Shown: one piece after another, positions 2,436-48,945 of the stretch | How the letters are laid out: the number at the start of each line of letters is the position of its first letter | Position numbering within the stretch: position 1 is the first letter of the stretch | Source of the DNA: Moorella glycerini | GTDB taxonomy: Bacteria; Bacillota; DSM-521; Neomoorellales; Neomoorellaceae | Direction of reading: 5' to 3' | Length of the DNA stretch: 64,000 nt | Assembly: GCF_009735625.1 (NCBI RefSeq) | Contig: NZ_CP046244.1 | Coordinates: 1,054,001 to 1,118,000, forward strand | Notes under the pieces: generated by a model | Told to the model about the DNA's origin: nothing | Databases searched by the model: none | Seen by the model: only the letters and a program-made list of their open reading frames with translations | Translations under genes and position numbers: made by a program

Positions 2436-2645
2436 ATGCAGGTGGTGCAGGAGCGAGTTTATAAAGCTATCGCTGACTTAATGAGGATGCCCGGTGAGCT
2501 GAACGCCCTGGAGAGGGCCTACCAGGACGAAGGTTATCACGTCGAGCGGGGCTTTGCCGGGACGGTCATTTTGAAGCTGGAAGACGGCGAGGTTCATTTT
2601 GTCCCCGGCGGGACTTTGATCAGGCAAATTGTTTTCAGGAATTAG
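2436..2645 (+). CDS. Small protein upstream of transposase, unknown
   Basis: A 69-residue protein from ATG 2436 behind a weak GGGGTGA site. The N-terminal half is helical (VQERVYKAIADLMRMPGELN) and the C-terminal half looks like beta hairpins (GTVILKLEDGEVHFVPGGTL). No family recognised. It is 28 bp upstream of the transposase start and probably in the same transcript. Confidence 0.5.
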   Translation: MQVVQERVYKAIADLMRMPGELNALERAYQDEGYHVERGFAGTVILKLEDGEVHFVPGGTLIRQIVFRN

Positions 2646-2673
2646 GCAAAGTTTCTTGGGAAGGAGGGCAGAA

Positions 2674-4578
2674 ATGGGCACCTGGCTTGCGGTTAAAGAT
2701 GTGGCCGAACTACTGGATGTAACGGAAAGAACCGTACAACGGAAGATATCAAAGAAAGAGCTGGTAGCCAAGCGGAAGGGCAAGGGGTATCTGATAGATC
2801 TATCATCTTTGCCGCCGGAGGCCCAGCTTGAATATGCCAAACGCTTTCCCGAGGCGGAGGTGGTGTTTAAGGAGCGCAGGAGCCGCAACGGGCGCGAATA
2901 TTCCCTGGCGGAAATCATGGACCTTTACGGGCAGGAGGCGGTGCAGGAAGCTCTGGAAAAGGTCAGGGTGGCGAAGGAAGCCCTGGAAGTAAAATACGAC
3001 CTGGAGCGCACGGAAAAACTGGAGCGCCTGGCGCAGCAAAACGGTATCAGCTTAACCACCCTGTACCGCTGGATGGAGGCGTACGAGGAGGACAGTTTGA
3101 TGGGTTTAATCAAGAAACCGCCCAAGAGCCGGGGCAAGCGGCATAGCTTGCCGGAGGAGGCGATCAAGTTTATTAAGGGGTTATACCTGCAGCCAATCAA
3201 ACCCCAGGGCCAGTGGGTTTATGACCGGTATAAGGAGCGGGCCAGGGAAAAAGGCTGGCCGGTCGCCAGCCGGGCCACGGTCTACCGGGTATTGCAGGAA
3301 TTGAGCGAGTCGGAGCTGGTGATGGGGCGCGAGGGACTGGAAGAGTGGCGAAAGAAAATAATGCCCAAGGCGACGCGCGATATTACAGTGCTGAAGACCT
3401 ACGAGATCCTGGTGGGCGACCATCACACCTTCGACCTGTTTGTGGCCCACGGCGGGCGGGCGGTGAGGCCGGACCTGACGGCCTGGATGGACGCGAGATC
3501 CAGGGCCATCGTCGGCTGGTGCATCAGCCTGCAGGGCAATTCGGAAACAATCTCCCTGGCGCTGCGGCACGCGATGCTGCCGAAGGAGGACCCGGAGGTC
3601 CCGTTCTGCGGCATACCGGTGCTGGTATATATCGATAACGGCAAGGACTACCGCTCCAAGCGACTTACCGGCGGGATGAAAACGGCGCGGAAAGATTATT
3701 CCCTGGAGGCGCAGGGGGTGCTGGCCAACCTGAAGGTAGAAGCCACCTACTGCGAACCGTATTCACCCTGGGCCAAGGAGATCGAGCGCTGGTTCGAGAC
3801 CTTGACCAACCAATTCACCAGGTACCTGCCTGGGTTTTGCGGCACCAAGCCGGAGGACAGGCCCCCTGGGTTCGACGAGAAGAAGCTCCTGGAACGGGGC
3901 GAGCTGCTAACCCTGCCGGAACTGGTTGTGCTTTTTGAGCAGTACCTGAAAAAATACCATACTACATACCACGCGACACTCAAAGACACACCGCTTAACG
4001 TCTACCTCTCGGTGGAGAAGGCGCGGGAAGGCGTGCCGCAGCCCGAAGCCCTGGACCTCTTGATGATGAAATACGACAATGCCGTGGTCCAGACCGACGG
4101 CATCCACCGGTTCAACCACGTTTACTGGCATGACGACCTGATTAATTTGATCAACCACAAAGTGACCATCAGGTTTGACCCCAACCGGATCGGCGAACTG
4201 TGGGTCTACTACCAGGGCGAGAAGGTCTGTGTGGCGGAAAACAAAGAGCTTTTATCCATGCACGCCAGCGAGGAAGACATCAAGAAATGGCGGCGGGTCC
4301 AGGCCCGCGCCAGAAAGGAGGTCCTGGCCCGCATCAATTCTTACGGCGTTTCTCAGGACGACCTGCGGGAGATCGTGGCCAGCACTTTCGAGGACGGCCC
4401 GGCCATCTTTACAGGCAGGTCCAGCTCTAAACCGGCTGCCGTGACAACCCTGACCGGCTTTGAAAAAGAAGCGCGGGAAGCCAAGAAAAGGCGGCGTAAG
4501 GAAGAAATCGGCGAGATGGGCCACAATTTCTTCAGGGAAAAAGGCTTAAAACTTCTCGGAGGAGGTAATCAAAGATGA
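2674..4578 (+). CDS. Mu-type DDE transposase (MuA-like)
   Basis: This 634-residue protein should catalyse strand transfer of the phage ends, both for integration and for replicative transposition. ATG 2674 follows AAGGAGGG; the longer frame start at 2629 overlaps the previous gene. Order of parts: an N-terminal winged/MerR-like DNA-binding domain (LAVKDVAELLDVTERTVQRK), a second helix-turn-helix (GISLTTLYRWMEAYEE), a third (SRATVYRVLQEL), then the rve catalytic core. The catalytic triad is visible as D249 (GDHHTFD), D321 (YIDNG) and E371 (KEIERWF), matching the DDE spacing style of MuA. A C-terminal beta-barrel region (NHKVTIRFDPNRIGELWVYY) and basic tail, where MuA contacts MuB and ClpX, follow. 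The stop overlaps the MuB-like gene by 4 bp. Confidence 0.93.
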   Translation: MGTWLAVKDVAELLDVTERTVQRKISKKELVAKRKGKGYLIDLSSLPPEAQLEYAKRFPEAEVVFKERRSRNGREYSLAEIMDLYGQEAVQEALEKVRVAKEALEVKYDLERTEKLERLAQQNGISLTTLYRWMEAYEEDSLMGLIKKPPKSRGKRHSLPEEAIKFIKGLYLQPIKPQGQWVYDRYKERAREKGWPVASRATVYRVLQELSESELVMGREGLEEWRKKIMPKATRDITVLKTYEILVGDHHTFDLFVAHGGRAVRPDLTAWMDARSRAIVGWCISLQGNSETISLALRHAMLPKEDPEVPFCGIPVLVYIDNGKDYRSKRLTGGMKTARKDYSLEAQGVLANLKVEATYCEPYSPWAKEIERWFETLTNQFTRYLPGFCGTKPEDRPPGFDEKKLLERGELLTLPELVVLFEQYLKKYHTTYHATLKDTPLNVYLSVEKAREGVPQPEALDLLMMKYDNAVVQTDGIHRFNHVYWHDDLINLINHKVTIRFDPNRIGELWVYYQGEKVCVAENKELLSMHASEEDIKKWRRVQARARKEVLARINSYGVSQDDLREIVASTFEDGPAIFTGRSSSKPAAVTTLTGFEKEAREAKKRRRKEEIGEMGHNFFREKGLKLLGGGNQR

Positions 4579-5588
4579 GCGACAATTCGACTGCCATGGA
4601 CAAGCACAACAAGGAGGAACTGCGGGAATTCTTTGCGGACCTGGTGGAAAACCAGGGCAAGCGCATCACCGACCTGGCTAAAAACATCGGCTACTCCCAC
4701 ACTATGCTTTCCCGGTTTATCAAAGACGGCTACTGCAGCAGCCAGTTCCTGGAGGCCGCTGCCCAGTTCCGGGCAAGTTACCTGGAGCAGGTTAAAAGCG
4801 TGGCTGAAGTGGCGGCGGGCGTGGAAGCCATCAAACGGCAGAGTATCGAATGGCGCGGCGAGTGGGACTACATCCCCACCAACGATGCGGTTGCCGTCCT
4901 GGGATTCGTTGACGAAGTATGGCGGCTGCACGAAATGGGTGCCATCCTGGGCCATCCGGGCACGGGAAAGACCAGGGGCGTCCAGGAATACTGCAAGATT
5001 AACCCCAAGGCGGTCTATGTGCGGGCCGACGTCACCATGTCTTCCAAGGAATTGTTGCTGGAGATTGGCGAGGCGCTGGGCGAGAATCTGAGTTACGGGT
5101 CCCGGCGCTCCATGATGCGGCGGATCATTAACCGGCTGCGGGAGGAGCCGCGCATCTTGATTATTGACGAGGCAGACCTCCTGGCCGCCGGTTACACGGT
5201 CAATAAGATGGAAATCCTGCGGAGCATTTACGATGAAACTAAACCCTACGGCAACGCCCTGCTCCTGGTGGGTATGCCCAGGCTGGAAGCCTTTTTGAAG
5301 AAAGGCCCCAGCCTCAAGGAAAACCTGTCCCAGTTCGACAGCCGCATGGGGCTGGTGCTGCGCATGGGGGGGCTGAAGCGGGAAGAAATTGAAGCCATCC
5401 TGGATAAGGTGAACTGCACGCCGGGGGCCAGGCAAATGCTGGTCAACATCATCATGAAGACATCCAAGGGCGGCATCCGGCAGCTTACCAAGATACTGGG
5501 CCGCTGCCTGGATCTGGCGCTGGAAAACGGCGACGGCGTTATTACAGATGAAATCGTGCGGGAAGCCACCCGGATGTTGATGCTCTAA
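4575..5588 (+). CDS. MuB-like AAA+ transposition ATPase
   Basis: A 337-residue target-selection ATPase that should activate the transposase and deliver target DNA. It starts at ATG 4575 (ATGA overlap with the transposase stop) behind GGAGGAGG. The N-terminus carries a helix-turn-helix (ITDLAKNIGYSHTMLSRFI), as in MuB. The AAA+ core shows Walker A GHPGTGKT (126-133) and Walker B RILIIDEAD (193-201). A C-terminal helical lid with KGGIRQLTKIL follows. Length is close to MuB (about 312 residues). Translational coupling to the transposase fits a fixed stoichiometry. Confidence 0.93.
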   Translation: MSDNSTAMDKHNKEELREFFADLVENQGKRITDLAKNIGYSHTMLSRFIKDGYCSSQFLEAAAQFRASYLEQVKSVAEVAAGVEAIKRQSIEWRGEWDYIPTNDAVAVLGFVDEVWRLHEMGAILGHPGTGKTRGVQEYCKINPKAVYVRADVTMSSKELLLEIGEALGENLSYGSRRSMMRRIINRLREEPRILIIDEADLLAAGYTVNKMEILRSIYDETKPYGNALLLVGMPRLEAFLKKGPSLKENLSQFDSRMGLVLRMGGLKREEIEAILDKVNCTPGARQMLVNIIMKTSKGGIRQLTKILGRCLDLALENGDGVITDEIVREATRMLML

Positions 5589-8021: not shown

Positions 8022-8202
8022 AATGCTTCAACCGAAAGCGGGAATGAATATATACGATGACGCAAAGTATATCAGGCTGCGGCGGACCAGGAAGAGACCG
8101 GCCCACCCGGCCCCCGCCTGGGCGTGGTGGGTGCTGGGCCTGGCCTGCGGCTATTTCATGGCCGCCCTGGCGGTGGCCCTGGCCTGGGGGCGTCTGCCTT
8201 AG
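8014..8202 (+). CDS. Small single-pass membrane protein
   Basis: A 62-residue protein from ATG 8014 (8 bp overlap with the loader gene; ATG 8023 and 8044 are alternatives). A basic stretch (RLRRTRKRPAHPAP) precedes one long hydrophobic helix (WVLGLACGYFMAALAVALAW). It would sit in the cytoplasmic membrane with N-terminus inside. Function unknown; similar small membrane proteins occur in early regions of Mu-like phages. Confidence 0.55.
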   Translation: MIEMLQPKAGMNIYDDAKYIRLRRTRKRPAHPAPAWAWWVLGLACGYFMAALAVALAWGRLP

Positions 8203-8233
8203 CAGACACCAAAACCAGGGAGGGGGAGCGGTT

Positions 8234-8671
8234 ATGGGCATGAATCGCGGGTTGTTTTCCTCGGCCAGCGATGAATGGGAAACCCCGCAGTGGTTGTTTG
8301 ACCAGTTAAACAAGGAATTTCGATTTGTCCTGGACGTTTGCGCCACTCCAGAGAACGCCAAATGCCCTTATTACTACACTAAGGAGCAAGACGCACTCAA
8401 CTGCTCCTGGGTATGGGCGAAGAACTGCTGGATGAACCCGCCTTATGGCCGCCAGATTGGCCAATGGGTCAGAAAAGCTTATGAGGAAGCAAAGGCCGGG
8501 GCTACAGTGGTCTGCCTGCTGCCAGCCCGCACGGACACAGCCTGGTGGCATGATTACTGCATGAAAGGGGAAATCCGTTTTATCCGGGGCAGGTTAAAGT
8601 TTGGCCGGAGTAAGAACAGCGCGCCATTTCCAAGTGCAATTGTGATTTTCAGACCGAGAAATGGGCGGTGA
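8234..8671 (+). CDS. Phage DNA N6-adenine methyltransferase (Dam family)
   Basis: A 145-residue methylase of the phage Dam type (PF05869 style). ATG 8234 follows AGGGGGAG. It starts with the family's DEWETPQWLFDQL motif and contains NPPYG at residues 68-72, the catalytic motif IV for N6-adenine transfer, then a C-terminal RGRLKFG motif typical of this group. It probably methylates phage DNA to evade restriction or to mark it for regulation. The stop overlaps the start region of the next gene. Confidence 0.88.
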   Translation: MGMNRGLFSSASDEWETPQWLFDQLNKEFRFVLDVCATPENAKCPYYYTKEQDALNCSWVWAKNCWMNPPYGRQIGQWVRKAYEEAKAGATVVCLLPARTDTAWWHDYCMKGEIRFIRGRLKFGRSKNSAPFPSAIVIFRPRNGR

Positions 8672-30095: not shown

Positions 30096-31631
30096 GTGGC
30101 AAATATTAGTAAGTTGTCGCTTGCGGCATTGCGTGATTGGCTATTGAGCCAGGTTCGGGAGCAAGTATTTTGGCACAACTCCAAATCTGATGGCACTGGC
30201 ACCATGGTGGCCAGTGTGATGGTCTACATCCCGCGCTTTCGTGTACCTGCAGGTATATGGGAGGGATGGCCTCCAGTCGAAATCAAGTCGCCGGGGTTCT
30301 GGTTCGATAAATATCCTTGCAGCCAGCCTGATGCAACTTCGCAGAGCCGTGGCAGCACGTCTCCCAACTCCCCCGGCCTGGTGGCCGCAGTAAGCCAGGC
30401 GGGGGTGGTACCCTGGACGGACATCAACCAGCCCAATTCCAAGATAGTTTGCAGCAACAGGAAAATCAATGGCCGTTCCTGCCACCTCATAACCTTGGAG
30501 GAAGCCAGGGCTGTCATGTTCGTGAAAGAACTCATCGGACATGTCCTGTATGGAAACAACTACTGGGGGCGGGATTACCGCGATCCTGCTTCTTGGGAGT
30601 ATTATGGAGAGCCCGACCCGGTGGTCGCTTCATATACCAAACAATATTCGCCTACCGGGTATTCTCGCGTTTTAACCGGCACTGGGCCGAACAAGTGGGC
30701 GCACAATGGTCTTGCAATCGGCGGCGCAATGGATTTTATCAGCTTCTGGCAATGGACGGATTTTGAAATTACCGATGGCCGCTACCAGGCGGTTAAGAAG
30801 GCGGCTATAAATGATGTCGATGGCATCACCGCCGCTGACACCGCCATTGTGATCGACGGGGTAGAAAAGCCGGAGTTTTGGCCTGTAAATAATGGGCTGG
30901 TCTTAATCAAGGCTGAAGGAACGAACACGGACGAATATGTGATCTATGACTCCTTCGTGGACAACGGCGATGGTACCTACACTCTCAGCGGCTGCCAGCG
31001 TGGCCAGAAGGGCACCGCTGCCAGTGCCCACGCCAACGACGCCTTGGTGCAGCAAATCACTGACTACTGCGTGATACCGGGCGGCTGGACCGCCAAGATC
31101 GCTGATGCCGGACTCGATAACACCGCCAACCCAGCCACATTTACCTACAGCGACCTGGTGTTGGGACCGGGCGGGGCCAACCCGGCAGTGAACGACGTTC
31201 TCCAGTGCCAGAACGAGCAACTAATTATTACGGCTGTCAACGGGAACAGCATCACAGTCAGTCGTGGAGCCAATGGCTCAACCGTGGCTGCCCATGCCCA
31301 GGGGATCGGCATTGCGCGTATTTCACCACAGATGACGAATGATAATGTGGCAGCTACTGGTGACTACGGCGCATACCAATTTAACAGGATCGTGAGCTTC
31401 AGGACTGAACCGGAACTGCTGGCCCTGGGCCTGCCTGCTTCTGTGTCCTCTGGCGGCTCTAGCCGTTTTGGCGATGGCTTCTGGCTGCGGGTCTATGGCC
31501 AACGTGCGGGCCTTGTTGGCGGGGACTGGGCCAATGGGTCGAATGTGGCCCGTGGTTGGGCGGTCAACTTGATCTATCCGCCGTCGTACGCGAACTTCTT
31601 CATCGCCCCCCGCGCCGCTTTGCGCCTGTAA
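30096..31631 (+). CDS. DGR-diversified receptor-binding protein (C-type-lectin fold expected)
   Basis: A 511-residue protein from GTG 30096. Residues about 40-240 resemble the FGE-sulfatase/C-type lectin scaffold used by DGR targets (GFWFDKYPCSQ, then CSNRKINGRSCHLITLEEAR). Residues about 245-430 look like an inserted module with two related beta units, each with a RG...GT/ST...AH core (GCQRGQKGTAASAH and SRGANGSTVAAHAQG). The fold resumes at FGDGFWLRVYGQ and ends in the variable repeat (residues 470-508). Seven residues differ from the template-encoded version: D477, A479, I493, Y494, Y498, F501 and F502. Position after the fibre genes suggests a tail-tip adhesin that binds host receptors. 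Confidence 0.88.
   Translation: MANISKLSLAALRDWLLSQVREQVFWHNSKSDGTGTMVASVMVYIPRFRVPAGIWEGWPPVEIKSPGFWFDKYPCSQPDATSQSRGSTSPNSPGLVAAVSQAGVVPWTDINQPNSKIVCSNRKINGRSCHLITLEEARAVMFVKELIGHVLYGNNYWGRDYRDPASWEYYGEPDPVVASYTKQYSPTGYSRVLTGTGPNKWAHNGLAIGGAMDFISFWQWTDFEITDGRYQAVKKAAINDVDGITAADTAIVIDGVEKPEFWPVNNGLVLIKAEGTNTDEYVIYDSFVDNGDGTYTLSGCQRGQKGTAASAHANDALVQQITDYCVIPGGWTAKIADAGLDNTANPATFTYSDLVLGPGGANPAVNDVLQCQNEQLIITAVNGNSITVSRGANGSTVAAHAQGIGIARISPQMTNDNVAATGDYGAYQFNRIVSFRTEPELLALGLPASVSSGGSSRFGDGFWLRVYGQRAGLVGGDWANGSNVARGWAVNLIYPPSYANFFIAPRAALRL
31501..31619 (+). repeat. DGR variable repeat (VR)
   Basis: A 119-bp copy of the template repeat at 32074-32192, ending 12 bp before the end of the target gene. 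Identity is 111/119. The eight differences (31524, 31531, 31573, 31575, 31587, 31596, 31599, 31600) all face an adenine in the template: six A-to-T, one A-to-G, one A-to-C. The last 19 bases, GC-rich and unchanged, act as the expected initiation-of-mutagenic-homing (IMH) site; identity ends at 31620. Confidence 0.96.
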
Positions 31632-31658
31632 CCTGAATCCTGAAAACTGAAATCCTGA

Positions 31659-31680
31659 TGGCCCCGCGATAGCGGGGCCA
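31659..31680. promoter_or_regulatory. Hairpin/cruciform with GATA loop downstream of VR
   Basis: TGGCCCCGC (31659-31667) pairs perfectly with GCGGGGCCA (31672-31680) around the tetraloop GATA. It lies 39 bp after the VR and past the target stop codon. In the Bordetella BPP-1 DGR and relatives, a GC-rich hairpin/cruciform with a GRNA tetraloop downstream of the IMH is needed for efficient homing; GATA fits GRNA. There is no T-run, so an ordinary terminator is less likely. Confidence 0.75.
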
Positions 31681-31708
31681 GGGCAAACTTATTTTGCAGG
31701 AGAAATTG

Positions 31709-32053
31709 ATGACTAAGAAGTTTGAGCTTGAAGAGAAATGCCGGGAGATGATGGAATTCGCTTATATGGCCCTTCGGGACATCCCGCGTGACTATCGCTA
31801 TACATTAGGGGCAGACATCCGTAATTCGGCCATGAATTTGATGCAGTTAATAGTCCGCTGCAGAAAACGCTATTACAAGAAAACCACCTTAGAGGACATG
31901 GATATCGAATTAGAAACACTTCGTTCATTCATCCGCATAGCGGCAGACACTAATGTTATTTCCAAAGGAGAATATGGTGCTTGGGCTGAAAAGCTAGACG
32001 AAATCGGTCGCTTGATTGGTGGCTGGCAGCGATCCGTTAGAAATAAGCAATAA
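31709..32053 (+). CDS. avd: DGR accessory variability determinant (Avd-like)
   Basis: A 114-residue, strongly helical, basic protein from ATG 31709 behind CAGGAGA (31697-31703); TTG 31694 overlaps the site. The motifs REMMEFAYMALRDIPRDYRY, LGADIRNSAMNLM and RCRKRYYKKTTLEDMDIELE fit the four-helix-bundle Avd/23S rRNA intervening-protein family. Avd pentamers bind the reverse transcriptase and template RNA and are required for cDNA synthesis in BPP-1. It lies between the VR gene and the template repeat, the classic order. Confidence 0.88.
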   Translation: MTKKFELEEKCREMMEFAYMALRDIPRDYRYTLGADIRNSAMNLMQLIVRCRKRYYKKTTLEDMDIELETLRSFIRIAADTNVISKGEYGAWAEKLDEIGRLIGGWQRSVRNKQ

Positions 32054-32360
32054 ACTATTAGGGCTTGGGCTGAAACGTGCGGGCCTTGTTGGCGGGAACT
32101 GGGACAATGGGTCGAATGTGGCCCGTGGTTGGGCGGTCAACTTGAACAATCCGCCGTCGAACGCGAACATCAACATCGCCCCCCGCGCCGCTCTGCCTGA
32201 AACAAGCGAGAAGGCGGCTGCTTACGGGCGGTCGTCCCAGGCACAGGCAAAGGAGCCCTGGTCCTTGTCGCGCCTGCTTTATGGCCGGCAAAAAATAAAA
32301 CACGCCAGACCCGGCTGGTAGGAAATGAAGGCCGGAATCTGGCCTGGTTGGAGGATGAAG
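32054..32360 (+). ncRNA. Template RNA region of the DGR (TR plus downstream spacer)
   Basis: From the avd stop to the reverse transcriptase start there is no credible gene. It holds the TR and a 168-bp spacer (32193-32360). In BPP-1 the RNA from the end of avd through the spacer is folded, bound by RT-Avd, and primes cDNA synthesis. The spacer here is of similar size. I infer the same role; secondary structure was not computed. The frame across it (32016-32321) lacks a ribosome site and overlaps avd. Confidence 0.6.
32074..32192 (+). repeat. DGR template repeat (TR)
   Basis: The non-coding donor copy, 20 bp after the avd stop. It contains 23 adenines; eight of them (32097, 32104, 32146, 32148, 32160, 32169, 32172, 32173) are changed in the VR, all other bases are identical. 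In the target frame most mutable positions fall in AAC/AAT codons, which can vary widely without making stop codons. Confidence 0.96.
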
Positions 32361-33416
32361 ATGAGGACTTACGATAATCTATACCCGCAAATTTACGACT
32401 TTGGAAACCTTTACGAGGCATATTTGAAGGCGCGGCGCGGGCATAGGTATGACCCGGACGTCCTCGTCTTCTCCAGCAACCGGGAGAGCGAACTGATCGA
32501 GTTGCAGAATGAGCTTATCTGGAAGACTTATCAGACGGGCCAATACCGCCGGTTTTATGTACATGACCCGAAAACCAGGCTAGTGGCCGCCCTCCCTTTT
32601 CGGGACCGCGTGCTGCACCACGCTCTGTGTAATGTTATTGAGCCGCTTTTTGAGCGGAAATATATCTATGACAGCTATGCCTGCCGGATAGGCAAGGGAA
32701 CTCACGCCGGTGCAGACCGGGTAACGGAATTTCTCAAAAAAGCTGCAAGAAAATGGCCCAAACCCTACTGCTTGAAAGCCGACATCAGCAAATACTTTCC
32801 GTCAGTGAGGCACAGCACCCTCCTGGGGATAATCAAAAGGACTATTGCTTGCGAAGATACTTTATGGCTTATCCAGGAAATCCTATCAAGCTGGGCGGAT
32901 ACAGCCGAACCGGATCCACGAGGGCTGCCCATTGGAAACCTAACCTCCCAGTTATTTGCAAATGTTTATTTGGATCAGTTGGATCACTTCATAAAAGAAG
33001 AGCTGCAAGTACCTTATTATGTTCGGTATATGGATGATTTCGTCATAATTTCTGGCGACAAGAAGGAACTGTGGCGGTTGAAGCAGGAGATAGAAGATTT
33101 TCTTGACGCCAGGCTTAGTTTAAAACTAAATGACAAAACTGGCATATTTCCTGTATCCCACGGTGTGGACTTCCTGGGGTACCGGATCTGGAAAGACCAT
33201 CGCCTGTTACGCAAGCGAAGTACTAAGAGGATTAAGCGTGCCTTAAAACACTTCCAGAAACTTTACAGCCAGGGCAAAATCGACTTCGAGAAGATCAACA
33301 CCACTGTTCAAAGCTGGTTGGGACATACAAAGCACGCAAACAGTTTTAATTTCAGAAAGAAACTCTTTGACACTTTTTCGTTCATACGGGGAAGAGGTGA
33401 TGATCATGAAACTTAA
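32361..33416 (+). CDS. DGR reverse transcriptase
   Basis: A 351-residue RT from ATG 32361, six bases after TTGGAGG; ATG 32325 and 32355 are poorer choices. It has no intron-type maturase or endonuclease domain. Motifs: LPFRDRVLHHALCN and YACRIGKGTHAG early, CLKADISKYFPSVRH (motif with first catalytic Asp), LPIGNLTSQLFANVYLDQLD (I191-G-x3-S-Q197, the DGR-type motif 4 instead of the QGxxxSP of group II introns), and YMDD at 223-226. The thumb is basic (KRSTKRIKRALKHFQ). It should copy TR RNA into cDNA with errors at adenines for transfer into the VR. Confidence 0.93.
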   Translation: MRTYDNLYPQIYDFGNLYEAYLKARRGHRYDPDVLVFSSNRESELIELQNELIWKTYQTGQYRRFYVHDPKTRLVAALPFRDRVLHHALCNVIEPLFERKYIYDSYACRIGKGTHAGADRVTEFLKKAARKWPKPYCLKADISKYFPSVRHSTLLGIIKRTIACEDTLWLIQEILSSWADTAEPDPRGLPIGNLTSQLFANVYLDQLDHFIKEELQVPYYVRYMDDFVIISGDKKELWRLKQEIEDFLDARLSLKLNDKTGIFPVSHGVDFLGYRIWKDHRLLRKRSTKRIKRALKHFQKLYSQGKIDFEKINTTVQSWLGHTKHANSFNFRKKLFDTFSFIRGRGDDHET

Positions 33417-33690
33417 AGGTTTTTGGAATGATCCAGAAGGGTTGTCTATCGGGGATATAGTTATATGGGCTACGTTGCCCCCTTGGTTATATACGGCCTA
33501 TCACTACGCTTTGGCAGCTGATTTAAGCGGGAACCAGGTTGACTTCTTTTTAACTCTAACATACCCGCTGTTAATGGTTTTGGGCGGCAAAGCTATTTCA
33601 GACCTGCCGCCGCTTAAAAGGCTGAAAATAGAGTTTCCAATCTCAGATGAAAGGGATGATCGTGGTGTCAACTCAAGCCCGAGGATATGA
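33406..33690 (+). CDS. Small two-helix membrane protein (holin-like)
   Basis: A 94-residue protein from ATG 33406 behind GAAGAGG, overlapping the RT gene by 11 bp. Two hydrophobic helices (IGDIVIWATLPPWLYTAYHY and DFFLTLTYPLLMVLGG) are followed by a charged tail. Position directly before the endolysin suggests a holin or antiholin, but no family motif is visible. Its end overlaps the amidase gene. Confidence 0.55.
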   Translation: MKLKGFWNDPEGLSIGDIVIWATLPPWLYTAYHYALAADLSGNQVDFFLTLTYPLLMVLGGKAISDLPPLKRLKIEFPISDERDDRGVNSSPRI

Positions 33691-34465
33691 ATTGAAGGAA
33701 ATGCTCCTTACTTCTGGACGCGGTGGTCGTCCAGGACGCAAAATTCAACCCAAGGCCCTGGTGATCCATTGGACAGCCAATACTAAAGCAGGAGCCGACG
33801 CGGTAGCCAACCGGAATTATTTTGAGGGGCACCCCCAAAATAAGGTTTCAGCCCACTATATTGTAGACGACCACCAAGTTGTTCAGTGCCTGCCCGAAGA
33901 CGAAATGGGATATCATGTGGGGGCTTATCGATATCAGCCGAAAGCACTGGAGTTATTGTCCTCTTACCCCAATAACTGCACCATCGGTATCGAGATTTGT
34001 GTCAACGAAGATTGCGATTTCAGGCGGACATACTGGAACACGGTGGCCCTGGCGGCTGATATTCTTCAGCGCTATGGCTGGGGTATTGACCGGCTTTGGC
34101 GGCATTATGACATTACCTGGAAAGATTGTCCGAGATTCTTTGTAAATGACGAGACCGCATGTGCATACGGCTTTACATCGGCAGCGGAGGGTTGGGAACA
34201 ATTCAAGTCTGATGTTAAAAAAGAAATGCAAGGAAAGGGGACGGATAGAATGTTCACTGACATGAGAGGGCATTGGGCCGAAAATGATGTCGAGGAAGCT
34301 GCGAAATTGGGCCTGGTGGCCGGGAAGGGGGACGGAACTTTTGGTCCTGACGATGGAATGACCAGGGCGCAAGGAACGGTGGTGAGCCTACGGGTTTACA
34401 AGAAGCTAGAGACTAAAATCATAGCGCTTGAAGAGCGCATCGCTAAATTTGAAGGGAGGGCTTAG
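33662..34465 (+). CDS. Endolysin: N-acetylmuramoyl-L-alanine amidase with SLH domain
   Basis: A zinc amidase (267 residues from GTG 33662 after AAAGGG; ATG 33647 and 33656 are alternatives) that cleaves the bond between muramic acid and the stem peptide. The amidase_2/PGRP domain has zinc ligands H36 (VIHWT), H148 (RHYD) and C156 (KDCP), like T7 lysozyme, plus VSAHYIVDD and YHVGAY. The C-terminus is a full SLH unit (FTDMRGHWAENDVEEAAKLG ... DGTFGPDDGMTRAQ). SLH domains bind pyruvylated cell-wall polymers, so this endolysin appears to use the host's S-layer anchor as its wall-binding target. A short coiled coil ends it. Confidence 0.88.
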   Translation: MVSTQARGYELKEMLLTSGRGGRPGRKIQPKALVIHWTANTKAGADAVANRNYFEGHPQNKVSAHYIVDDHQVVQCLPEDEMGYHVGAYRYQPKALELLSSYPNNCTIGIEICVNEDCDFRRTYWNTVALAADILQRYGWGIDRLWRHYDITWKDCPRFFVNDETACAYGFTSAAEGWEQFKSDVKKEMQGKGTDRMFTDMRGHWAENDVEEAAKLGLVAGKGDGTFGPDDGMTRAQGTVVSLRVYKKLETKIIALEERIAKFEGRA

Positions 34466-34467
34466 GA

Positions 34468-34830
34468 ATGCACGATTTATTAATGCAGGTGCTTTATGAT
34501 GTTCTGGTACTTCTGGCCACAGTCGCAGCTGGCTATGCCGTGGCCTGGTTACGGAAAAACCTTGGCGTTGAAGGAATGCGAAAGGTGGAAGTTGAACTGG
34601 CTGCCAAACAGGAGTTGGCCTCGTTGGCGGTCCGCTTTGTAGAGCAGGCTTATCGTAATTTACATGGAGAGGATAAATACCAGAAAGCAGCAGAATGGCT
34701 GGCGGCGCGGGCTGGTGAACTAGGCATGACAATGACGGCAGATGAAATCAAGGGACTTATTGAGGCTGCGTTAAGGGCATTCAAGGATAGATTTGGTGAG
34801 CAGTGGGCGGCAGAGACGACTGGCAGTTAA
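34468..34830 (+). CDS. Phage holin (LLH-type)
   Basis: A 120-residue protein, ATG 34468, two bases after the amidase stop. One N-terminal membrane helix (LYDVLVLLATVAAGYAVAWL) and a long amphipathic/charged C-terminal half with FVEQAYRNLHGEDKYQKAAE fit the phi-LLH holin family. It would make the membrane lesion that lets the amidase reach the wall. Last gene of the prophage. Confidence 0.8.
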   Translation: MHDLLMQVLYDVLVLLATVAAGYAVAWLRKNLGVEGMRKVEVELAAKQELASLAVRFVEQAYRNLHGEDKYQKAAEWLAARAGELGMTMTADEIKGLIEAALRAFKDRFGEQWAAETTGS

Positions 34831-35352: not shown

Positions 35353-35442
35353 TACTTTGCCAGCCGCAGGCAGAAGAGCAGTAGCAGGCCAAAGTGGCCC
35401 AGGTAAACGCCCGAAATAAGGGACCGCCAGGGATCCTTTTAT

Positions 35443-36069
35443 TTATAGCTTCAAGTTGTTATTTGTTGAATTTCTTTGATAGCCGGCGAGCAGCATTATA
35501 GCCCGGTAAATATTATTAACCTGTTCTTTGAGAGTAAGCCCTTCTTCATTCAAGCGCCAGCGCACAATGGTCCCCTGAATGAGCCCGATAAAAATGTAGG
35601 CCAGGCTTTTGGGATCGAATTCTCCCCGGAAAATACCTTTATCCATGCCTTCGTTAAATATCGTTTCAATCCAGGAGGTATAATTATTCACCAATTTCTT
35701 GATGTTCTCCTTTAGACCGGGATAGCCGGTGTACAGTTCATCTGAAAAAATGATCCGGGGCATGCCGGGGTTGGTTTCTAGTAAAGCCAAATGTGAATTT
35801 AAAATTGACCGCAGTTTCTTTTCGGGGGGAAGGTTGCTCCTGGCTACTCCAGCGGCCGTATCAGATAGGTTACTACCTACACTATGTACGGCTGCCTGCA
35901 GGATTTCTTCCTTGGTGGCAAAATGTTTAAAAATGGCACCTTCCGTCAGTCCTACTTCCCGGGCGATGGCTGCTGTTGTAAGATGAGTTAATCCTTGACT
36001 GGCAATAATTTTTAAGACGGCGGCTATTATTTGCTGTTGCCGGACAGCAGTGCTTTCTTTAGAGTTCAC
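35443..36069 (-). CDS. TetR-family transcription regulator
   Basis: A 208-residue repressor. The N-terminal TetR helix-turn-helix is clear (TTAAIAREVGLTEGAIFKHF), followed by a long helical ligand domain with a YAIFIGLIQGT-like segment near the end. Start ATG 36069 behind GGGAGG. It is the last gene of the minus-strand block with the ECF sigma factor and RND genes, but has its own promoter and a palindrome over the start site, so it is probably autoregulated and may also control the efflux genes. Confidence 0.88.
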   Translation of the reverse strand: MNSKESTAVRQQQIIAAVLKIIASQGLTHLTTAAIAREVGLTEGAIFKHFATKEEILQAAVHSVGSNLSDTAAGVARSNLPPEKKLRSILNSHLALLETNPGMPRIIFSDELYTGYPGLKENIKKLVNNYTSWIETIFNEGMDKGIFRGEFDPKSLAYIFIGLIQGTIVRWRLNEEGLTLKEQVNNIYRAIMLLAGYQRNSTNNNLKL

Positions 36070-48659: not shown

Positions 48660-48945
48660 ATGGTATGCCTCCTTAAGTTAATCCACCTTTATTATACAAT
48701 CACTTTGTTACCACTTCAATGTTCAGGGTAAACGGGTGTTTGGTTGGAGTTGAGGATCGCGCCGCCGGCCTGCTGAACAGTTTGAGCCGGCCAGGTGACG
48801 GAGCGCAATACCTCTACCCAGGACCTGTCGCAACAGCTCAGCACCACCCTGGAGCAGTAGCAGGCTAAAGTGGCCCAGATAAACGCCGCCACCGACCGGG
48901 AGGAGAGAGCGAAGCACGAAATAAGGGACCGCGAGGTCCCTTAAC
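48660..48945. other. Gene-free region with decayed coding remnant and terminator
   Basis: No intact gene. On the plus strand, 48795-48915 reads like a coiled-coil C-terminus broken by one stop (TQDLSQQLSTTLEQ, stop, QAKVAQINAATDREERAKHE). A shorter piece of the same sequence (AGCAGTAGCAGG..AAAGTGG) occurs at 35379-35410. At 48923-48942, AAGGGACC and GGTCCCTT pair around GCGA and serve as terminator for the minus-strand gene beginning at 49512. Confidence 0.5.

Follow-up and report, generated by a model that had tools for sequence, protein, structure and literature searches.

We identified a complete diversity-generating retroelement (DGR) in a 64,000-bp stretch of the Moorella glycerini genome (hereafter the window, numbered from its first base), with all of its genes and repeats on the forward strand. 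Its parts are a target gene ending in a variable repeat (VR), a hairpin, the accessory gene avd, a template repeat (TR), and a reverse transcriptase (RT) gene, an order that the sequence-only reading of this DNA had given correctly; a sixth element, absent from that reading, is a structured RNA of the Rfam family RT-14. The VR (31501-31619) and the TR (32074-32192) are each 119 bp long, at an offset of 573 bp, and differ at eight of the 119 positions (32097, 32104, 32146, 32148, 32160, 32169, 32172, and 32173 in the TR); the TR has an adenine at all eight, and the VR has T at six of them, C at one, and G at one. Our repeat comparison reproduced exactly the boundaries, the eight mismatch sites, and the 23 TR adenines that had been proposed from the letters. 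Given that 23 of the 119 TR positions are adenines, the exact hypergeometric probability of this adenine-only confinement is 6.3e-7, so the earlier estimate of (23/119)^8, about 2e-6, was of the right order of magnitude. The match between the repeats extends four bases further (to 31623 in the VR and 32196 in the TR) and includes one non-adenine difference, C to T at 32193, which falls in the 3′ homology tail; counting this position too, eight of nine differences are at adenines (P about 4e-6).

The 23 TR adenines occupy 13 codons in the frame of the target gene, nine of them AAY (asparagine) codons. AAY codons cannot mutate to stops at their adenines, and all 13 adenine-bearing codons are stop-proof; about 1e13 protein variants are possible. 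The target residues changed so far, relative to the TR, are 477, 479, 493, 494, 498, 501, and 502. The fraction of adenines changed (8/23) is below the average of 48% in related loci (see below), and the share of A-to-T changes (6/8, a small number) is somewhat skewed in comparison with the relatives (G 43%, T 35%, and C 22%). A second TR/VR pair, a second Avd, and a second DGR were sought in the genome, and none was found.

The avd gene (accessory variability determinant; 31709-32053, 114 aa) matches both the Pfam family PF22296 (bAvd; E 5e-28) and phrog_3206 (“Avd protein of DGR”; E 9e-36). The RT gene (32325-33416, 363 aa) matches phrog_1423 (E 1e-146) and PF00078, and its nearest solved structure is a BPP-1-type DGR RT (PDB 8ub7; E 1e-68), a far better match than the group II maturases; we read the catalytic YMDD motif in its sequence, as well as IGNLTSQ, which fits the (I/L/V)GxxxSQ motif of the DGR clade. 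The RT, avd, and target reading frames are intact, with the catalytic motifs present, and no decayed parts were seen. Matches to this RT were found in none of ten other genomes of the genus. Beyond the window, the host genome contains about a dozen other RVT_1 genes (for example, at positions 129264, 248075, 683241, 828968, 1405674, and 1899151 of contig G000:C1); eight of these share the same score and a frame of 484 aa, which suggests a group II intron family that expanded recently.

The target gene (30096-31631) encodes a protein of 511 aa with the VR at its C-terminus, and lies directly 3′ of the baseplate J, Tail_P2_I, and tail-collar fiber genes and 5′ of lysis genes. According to phmmer, its sole solved relative by sequence is TaqVP of Thermus aquaticus (PDB 5vf4; E 7e-5), which is also the best Foldseek match (E 3e-14) of its AlphaFold model (pLDDT 86). 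TaqVP belongs to the FGE-type C-type-lectin proteins, and its VR sits at the extreme C-terminus (PMC6328139); thus, by the model, the target is predicted to have a variation-tolerant fold of the C-type-lectin type, with the VR at the 3′ end of the gene. TaqVP is shorter (about 381 aa). The window target has an inserted beta-rich region (roughly residues 264-381), which is missing in most distant homologs and apparently common to about 13 relatives of similar length. Matches to tail domains are weak (PF23666 at 26.2 bits, just below the cut-off, and the tail family phrog_1101). Two stretches with RGxxGxxxxAHA-type motifs are found at 30885-31340 (residues about 264-412), in the part of the protein that separates the conserved N-terminal region from the VR at the C-terminus; one of them is the sub-cut-off match to PF23666 (Rcc01698 C-terminal). 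A literature search, which was not exhaustive, found no description of this beta-rich insert.

We also examined the 3′-end of the VR and the sequence downstream of it. The VR ends in a G/C-only run, CGCCCCCCGCGCCGC (31604-31618), the counterpart of the (GC)14/IMH of Bordetella phage BPP-1, and by analogy with that phage (PMC3240598) the run would act as the IMH. Shortly downstream of the stop codon of the target gene there is a hairpin/cruciform (31659-31680; z -3.5) with a 9-bp stem, TGGCCCCGC, and a GATA loop. Hairpins 3′ of VRs have a GRNA loop consensus and a published distance range of 4-34 bp (PMC3240598); the GATA loop fits this consensus, and the distance of 35-39 bp from the VR is just past the range. 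Similar hairpins occur 28-46 nt 3′ of the VR in 31 of 109 related loci (25 of them with GRNA loops), compared with 3 of 109 for the corresponding position 3′ of the TR.

The structured RNA (32191-32344) lies between the TR and the RT, and was identified by cmscan as RT-14 (RF02921) with 53.9 bits, against a cut-off of 48.1; RT-14 was also found between the TR and RT in 9 of the 15 relatives scanned. In its first helix, the 3′-end of the TR (TGCCTG) pairs with CAGGCA in the spacer. The arms of this helix vary among the relatives, yet remain complementary (GCCTAA/TTAGGC, TGTTCG/CGAACA, TGCAC/GTGCA, and TTGGGG/CCTCAA, among others). RNAalifold missed the first helix in a 17-sequence alignment because the 5′-ends misalign, and hence we tested the pairing per sequence: the shuffle P-values are modest (mostly 0.03-0.2), the strength lying in the recurrence across loci, and for a handful of loci, including the close relative L092, no such helix was found. 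When the TR and spacer were folded together as a single sequence, the result did not exceed that of shuffled sequences (z 0.07), so the structure is supported by the family model and by the comparison among loci. In BPP-1, the spacer folds, recruits the RT-Avd complex, and primes cDNA synthesis (PMC12875486); given this published role, RT-14 is most simply read as the spacer (Sp) RNA of the DGR lineage in the window. We found no paper naming RT-14 as a DGR RNA in a literature search that was not exhaustive and is no proof of novelty.

The cassette is carried by a Mu-like prophage, of which positions 1-34947 of the window are a part; the whole element (G000:C1:1053232-1088947, forward strand) is 35,716 bp long. 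It has TGT...ACA ends flanked on both sides by a 5-bp direct repeat (GCAGT), the sole such combination in the regions searched. The description “Mu-like prophage” made from the sequence alone is borne out by these ends, by the duplication, and by genes for a MuA-type transposase (2629-4578; phrog_310, E 1e-106; Pfam Mu-transpos_C, HTH_Tnp_Mu_2, and DDE_2) and a MuB-type AAA ATPase, the target-DNA activator (4575-5588; phrog_296 DNA transposition protein, AAA_22); it needs the amendment that the element's left end is found 768 bp upstream of position 1. Together with MuA and MuB, the gene set includes terminase, portal, capsid, contractile-tail sheath, tape measure, baseplate J, Tail_P2_I, amidase, and holin genes, and by its gene content the prophage appears structurally complete. 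The lysis genes (33647-34830), which sit 3′ of the DGR, are the amidase (33647-34465; PF01510 and PF00395) and the holin (34468-34830; PF09682). The amidase is fused to an S-layer-homology (SLH) domain, by which the endolysin may anchor to a host cell-wall polymer. The early region contains an orphan DNA methyltransferase-like gene (8057-8671; PADLOC oMTase, E 5e-48), for which an anti-restriction function is possible.

In two relatives of the genus, the left flank is matched only as far as the prophage junction, to within a few bases. An exact empty insertion site was not alignable, the genus relatives either lacking a larger stretch or not aligning across the junction; no second copy of the phage was found, and a search of viral contigs with the target protein returned nothing. 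Outside the prophage, two short fragments (35376-35445 and 48852-48887) resemble the 3′-end of a DUF4349 gene (L189:8133-9197) that is itself located just left of the prophage, and directly after the fragment at 35376 comes sequence similar to the terminator downstream of the DUF4349 gene itself; the fragments are probably remnants of duplicated copies.

Two RT scans yielded 160 related loci, and our TR/VR finder recovered an adenine-biased repeat pair in more than 100 of them, with the same cassette layout in more than 100. In a set of 117 of these loci, 1449 of 1588 TR/VR differences are at adenines (91%, a figure biased upward since the set was kept at 75% adenine or more); 48% of TR adenines are changed, versus 1.4% of other bases. 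The same analysis of control phages gave 17/17 differences at adenines for BPP-1 and 10/11 for BalMu-1. The comparison of VR divergence at constant TR, which had been suggested together with the original reading, was run on relatives (RTs about 44-54% identical to that of the window), and VR turnover was observed in them. In eleven pairs with identical TRs (not all of them independent), the VRs differ at 10-16 TR-adenine positions and at 0-2 others. For example, L110 and L111, whose DNA is 99.6% identical, have VRs that differ at 12 of 24 adenines and at none of 83 other positions; the corresponding numbers are 15/26 and 0/93 for L134 and L135, 16/22 and 1/100 for L009 and L096, and 12/23 and 1/95 for L008 and L036. 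Nearly identical or repeated records showed no VR differences. That identical-TR relatives have VRs differing almost solely at TR-adenine positions indicates that this DGR family is active in nature.

Taken together, the window almost certainly contains a complete DGR carried by an intact-looking Mu-like prophage and working by the mechanism set out below, since every part that the DGR interpretation predicts was found independently (Avd, a DGR-type RT, a C-type-lectin-type target, a hairpin with a GRNA loop, a spacer RNA, Mu-like transposase and MuB, and prophage ends with a target duplication). The TR and VR might instead be an ordinary duplicated segment with selected or random point mutations, next to an unrelated RT of the group II or retron type; the host does have further RVT_1 genes, most of them near-identical and suggestive of group II introns, which lends this some color. 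Yet it is vanishingly improbable, given that all eight differences are at adenines (P 6e-7), that the RT is much closer to the DGR family and to the BPP-1 RT than to group II maturases, and that avd, the hairpin, and the Sp RNA lie in register, in a layout shared by more than 100 relatives; this combined evidence refutes it. A DGR that diversifies its protein for a purpose other than host adsorption, for example as a decoy or a defense-related surface protein, would agree with a target whose only tail-domain matches are the weak ones to PF23666 and phrog_1101, but the position of the target, directly after the baseplate and tail-fiber genes and before the lysis genes of the phage late operon, makes such a role very doubtful, as do the similarly placed target-like gene of BalMu-1 and mtd of BPP-1, which likewise precedes avd, TR, and RT.

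A real DGR that is now silent, whether the prophage is immobile or the RT and Avd are unexpressed, would leave the VR as a frozen record of past hypermutation. An independent copy of the prophage with a different VR was not found, and one genome sequence gives one VR, both of which agree with silence; the intact RT, avd, and target frames, the intact prophage ends with their exact target-site duplication, and the ongoing VR turnover in related phages make it unlikely. The claim that the element is active or recently active is supported indirectly, by its intact genes and the adenine-only VR divergence among close phages with the same RT family; for the window's own copy, we infer present-day activity.

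Among the closest known systems is BPP-1 (mtd-avd-TR-brt), which shares with the window cassette the gene order, the adenine-specific TR/VR changes, a G/C-only IMH, Avd, a GC stem with a GRNA loop 3′ of the VR, a structured Sp between TR and RT, and an RT about 40% identical. BPP-1 is not Mu-like, unlike the prophage in the window, and uses a tRNA gene as its integration site; the fold of its target, Mtd, matches only weakly, the BPP-1 IMH has five reported mismatches within the homology (one here), and its hairpin is adjacent to the VR (about 35-39 bp away here). Bacillus phage BalMu-1, a Mu-like phage of a Firmicute, has baseplate genes, target, an avd-sized ORF, TR, RT, and lysis genes in the same order, and its RT is 46.6% identical, but its target is about 316 aa long and its holin precedes the amidase. 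The BalMu-1 DGR (L193, KP063903.1, 31298-39861) is unannotated, its target, avd-sized ORF, and TR being hypothetical proteins or unlabeled. By description, the Bacteroides hankyphage is similar in its Mu-like transposase, 5-bp target duplications, and DGR acting on a tail fiber (PMC6199706; PMC12135933), although from another host phylum and phage lineage; its DGR activity has been measured in culture and in virions (PMC12135933). Likewise by description, the phage-related DGRs of the Firmicutes Desulfotomaculum reducens and D. acetoxidans, described in 2011, have a GC stem and GRNA loop downstream of the VR (PMC3240598, Figure 5). More than 30,000 DGRs are known from metagenomes, with three lineages that are phage-borne and act on attachment proteins (PMC8144416). 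Since DGRs were already known in Mu-like phages (hankyphage and BalMu-1) and in Desulfotomaculum, the window cassette is a new and unusually complete example of a system that is not itself new.

The mechanism that we propose follows BPP-1 in each biochemical step. The avd-TR-Sp-RT stretch would be transcribed, and the Sp RNA would fold, its first helix forming with the TR 3′-end, and recruit the RT-Avd complex. In making cDNA from the TR, this complex would introduce errors opposite adenines. The cDNA would then take the place of its homolog, the VR, in the 3′-terminal part of the gene for the receptor-binding-type tail protein of 511 aa, with the G/C-only IMH and the downstream GATA-loop hairpin guiding the exchange. 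Variation at 23 mutable adenines in the 13 codons would then be displayed on a C-type-lectin-type surface, the presumed benefit being host-range or tropism switching.

The cassette leaves the general understanding of DGRs unchanged, and connects RT-14, an Rfam family that otherwise lacks an explanation, with the DGR template RNA. It is likely that RT-14 is the priming and recruiting spacer RNA of one DGR lineage, with its first helix, between the TR 3′-end and the spacer, kept through sequence change, and that the targets of the same lineage have a beta-rich region, with a weak relationship to a tail protein of a gene transfer agent, inserted before the C-terminal VR of a C-type-lectin-type display domain. 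Because the DGR is clean and complete, its Mu-like prophage apparently intact, and the genome near-complete (3.56 Mb in two contigs), the cassette could become a test bed for studying adenine mutagenesis in a setting other than Bordetella.
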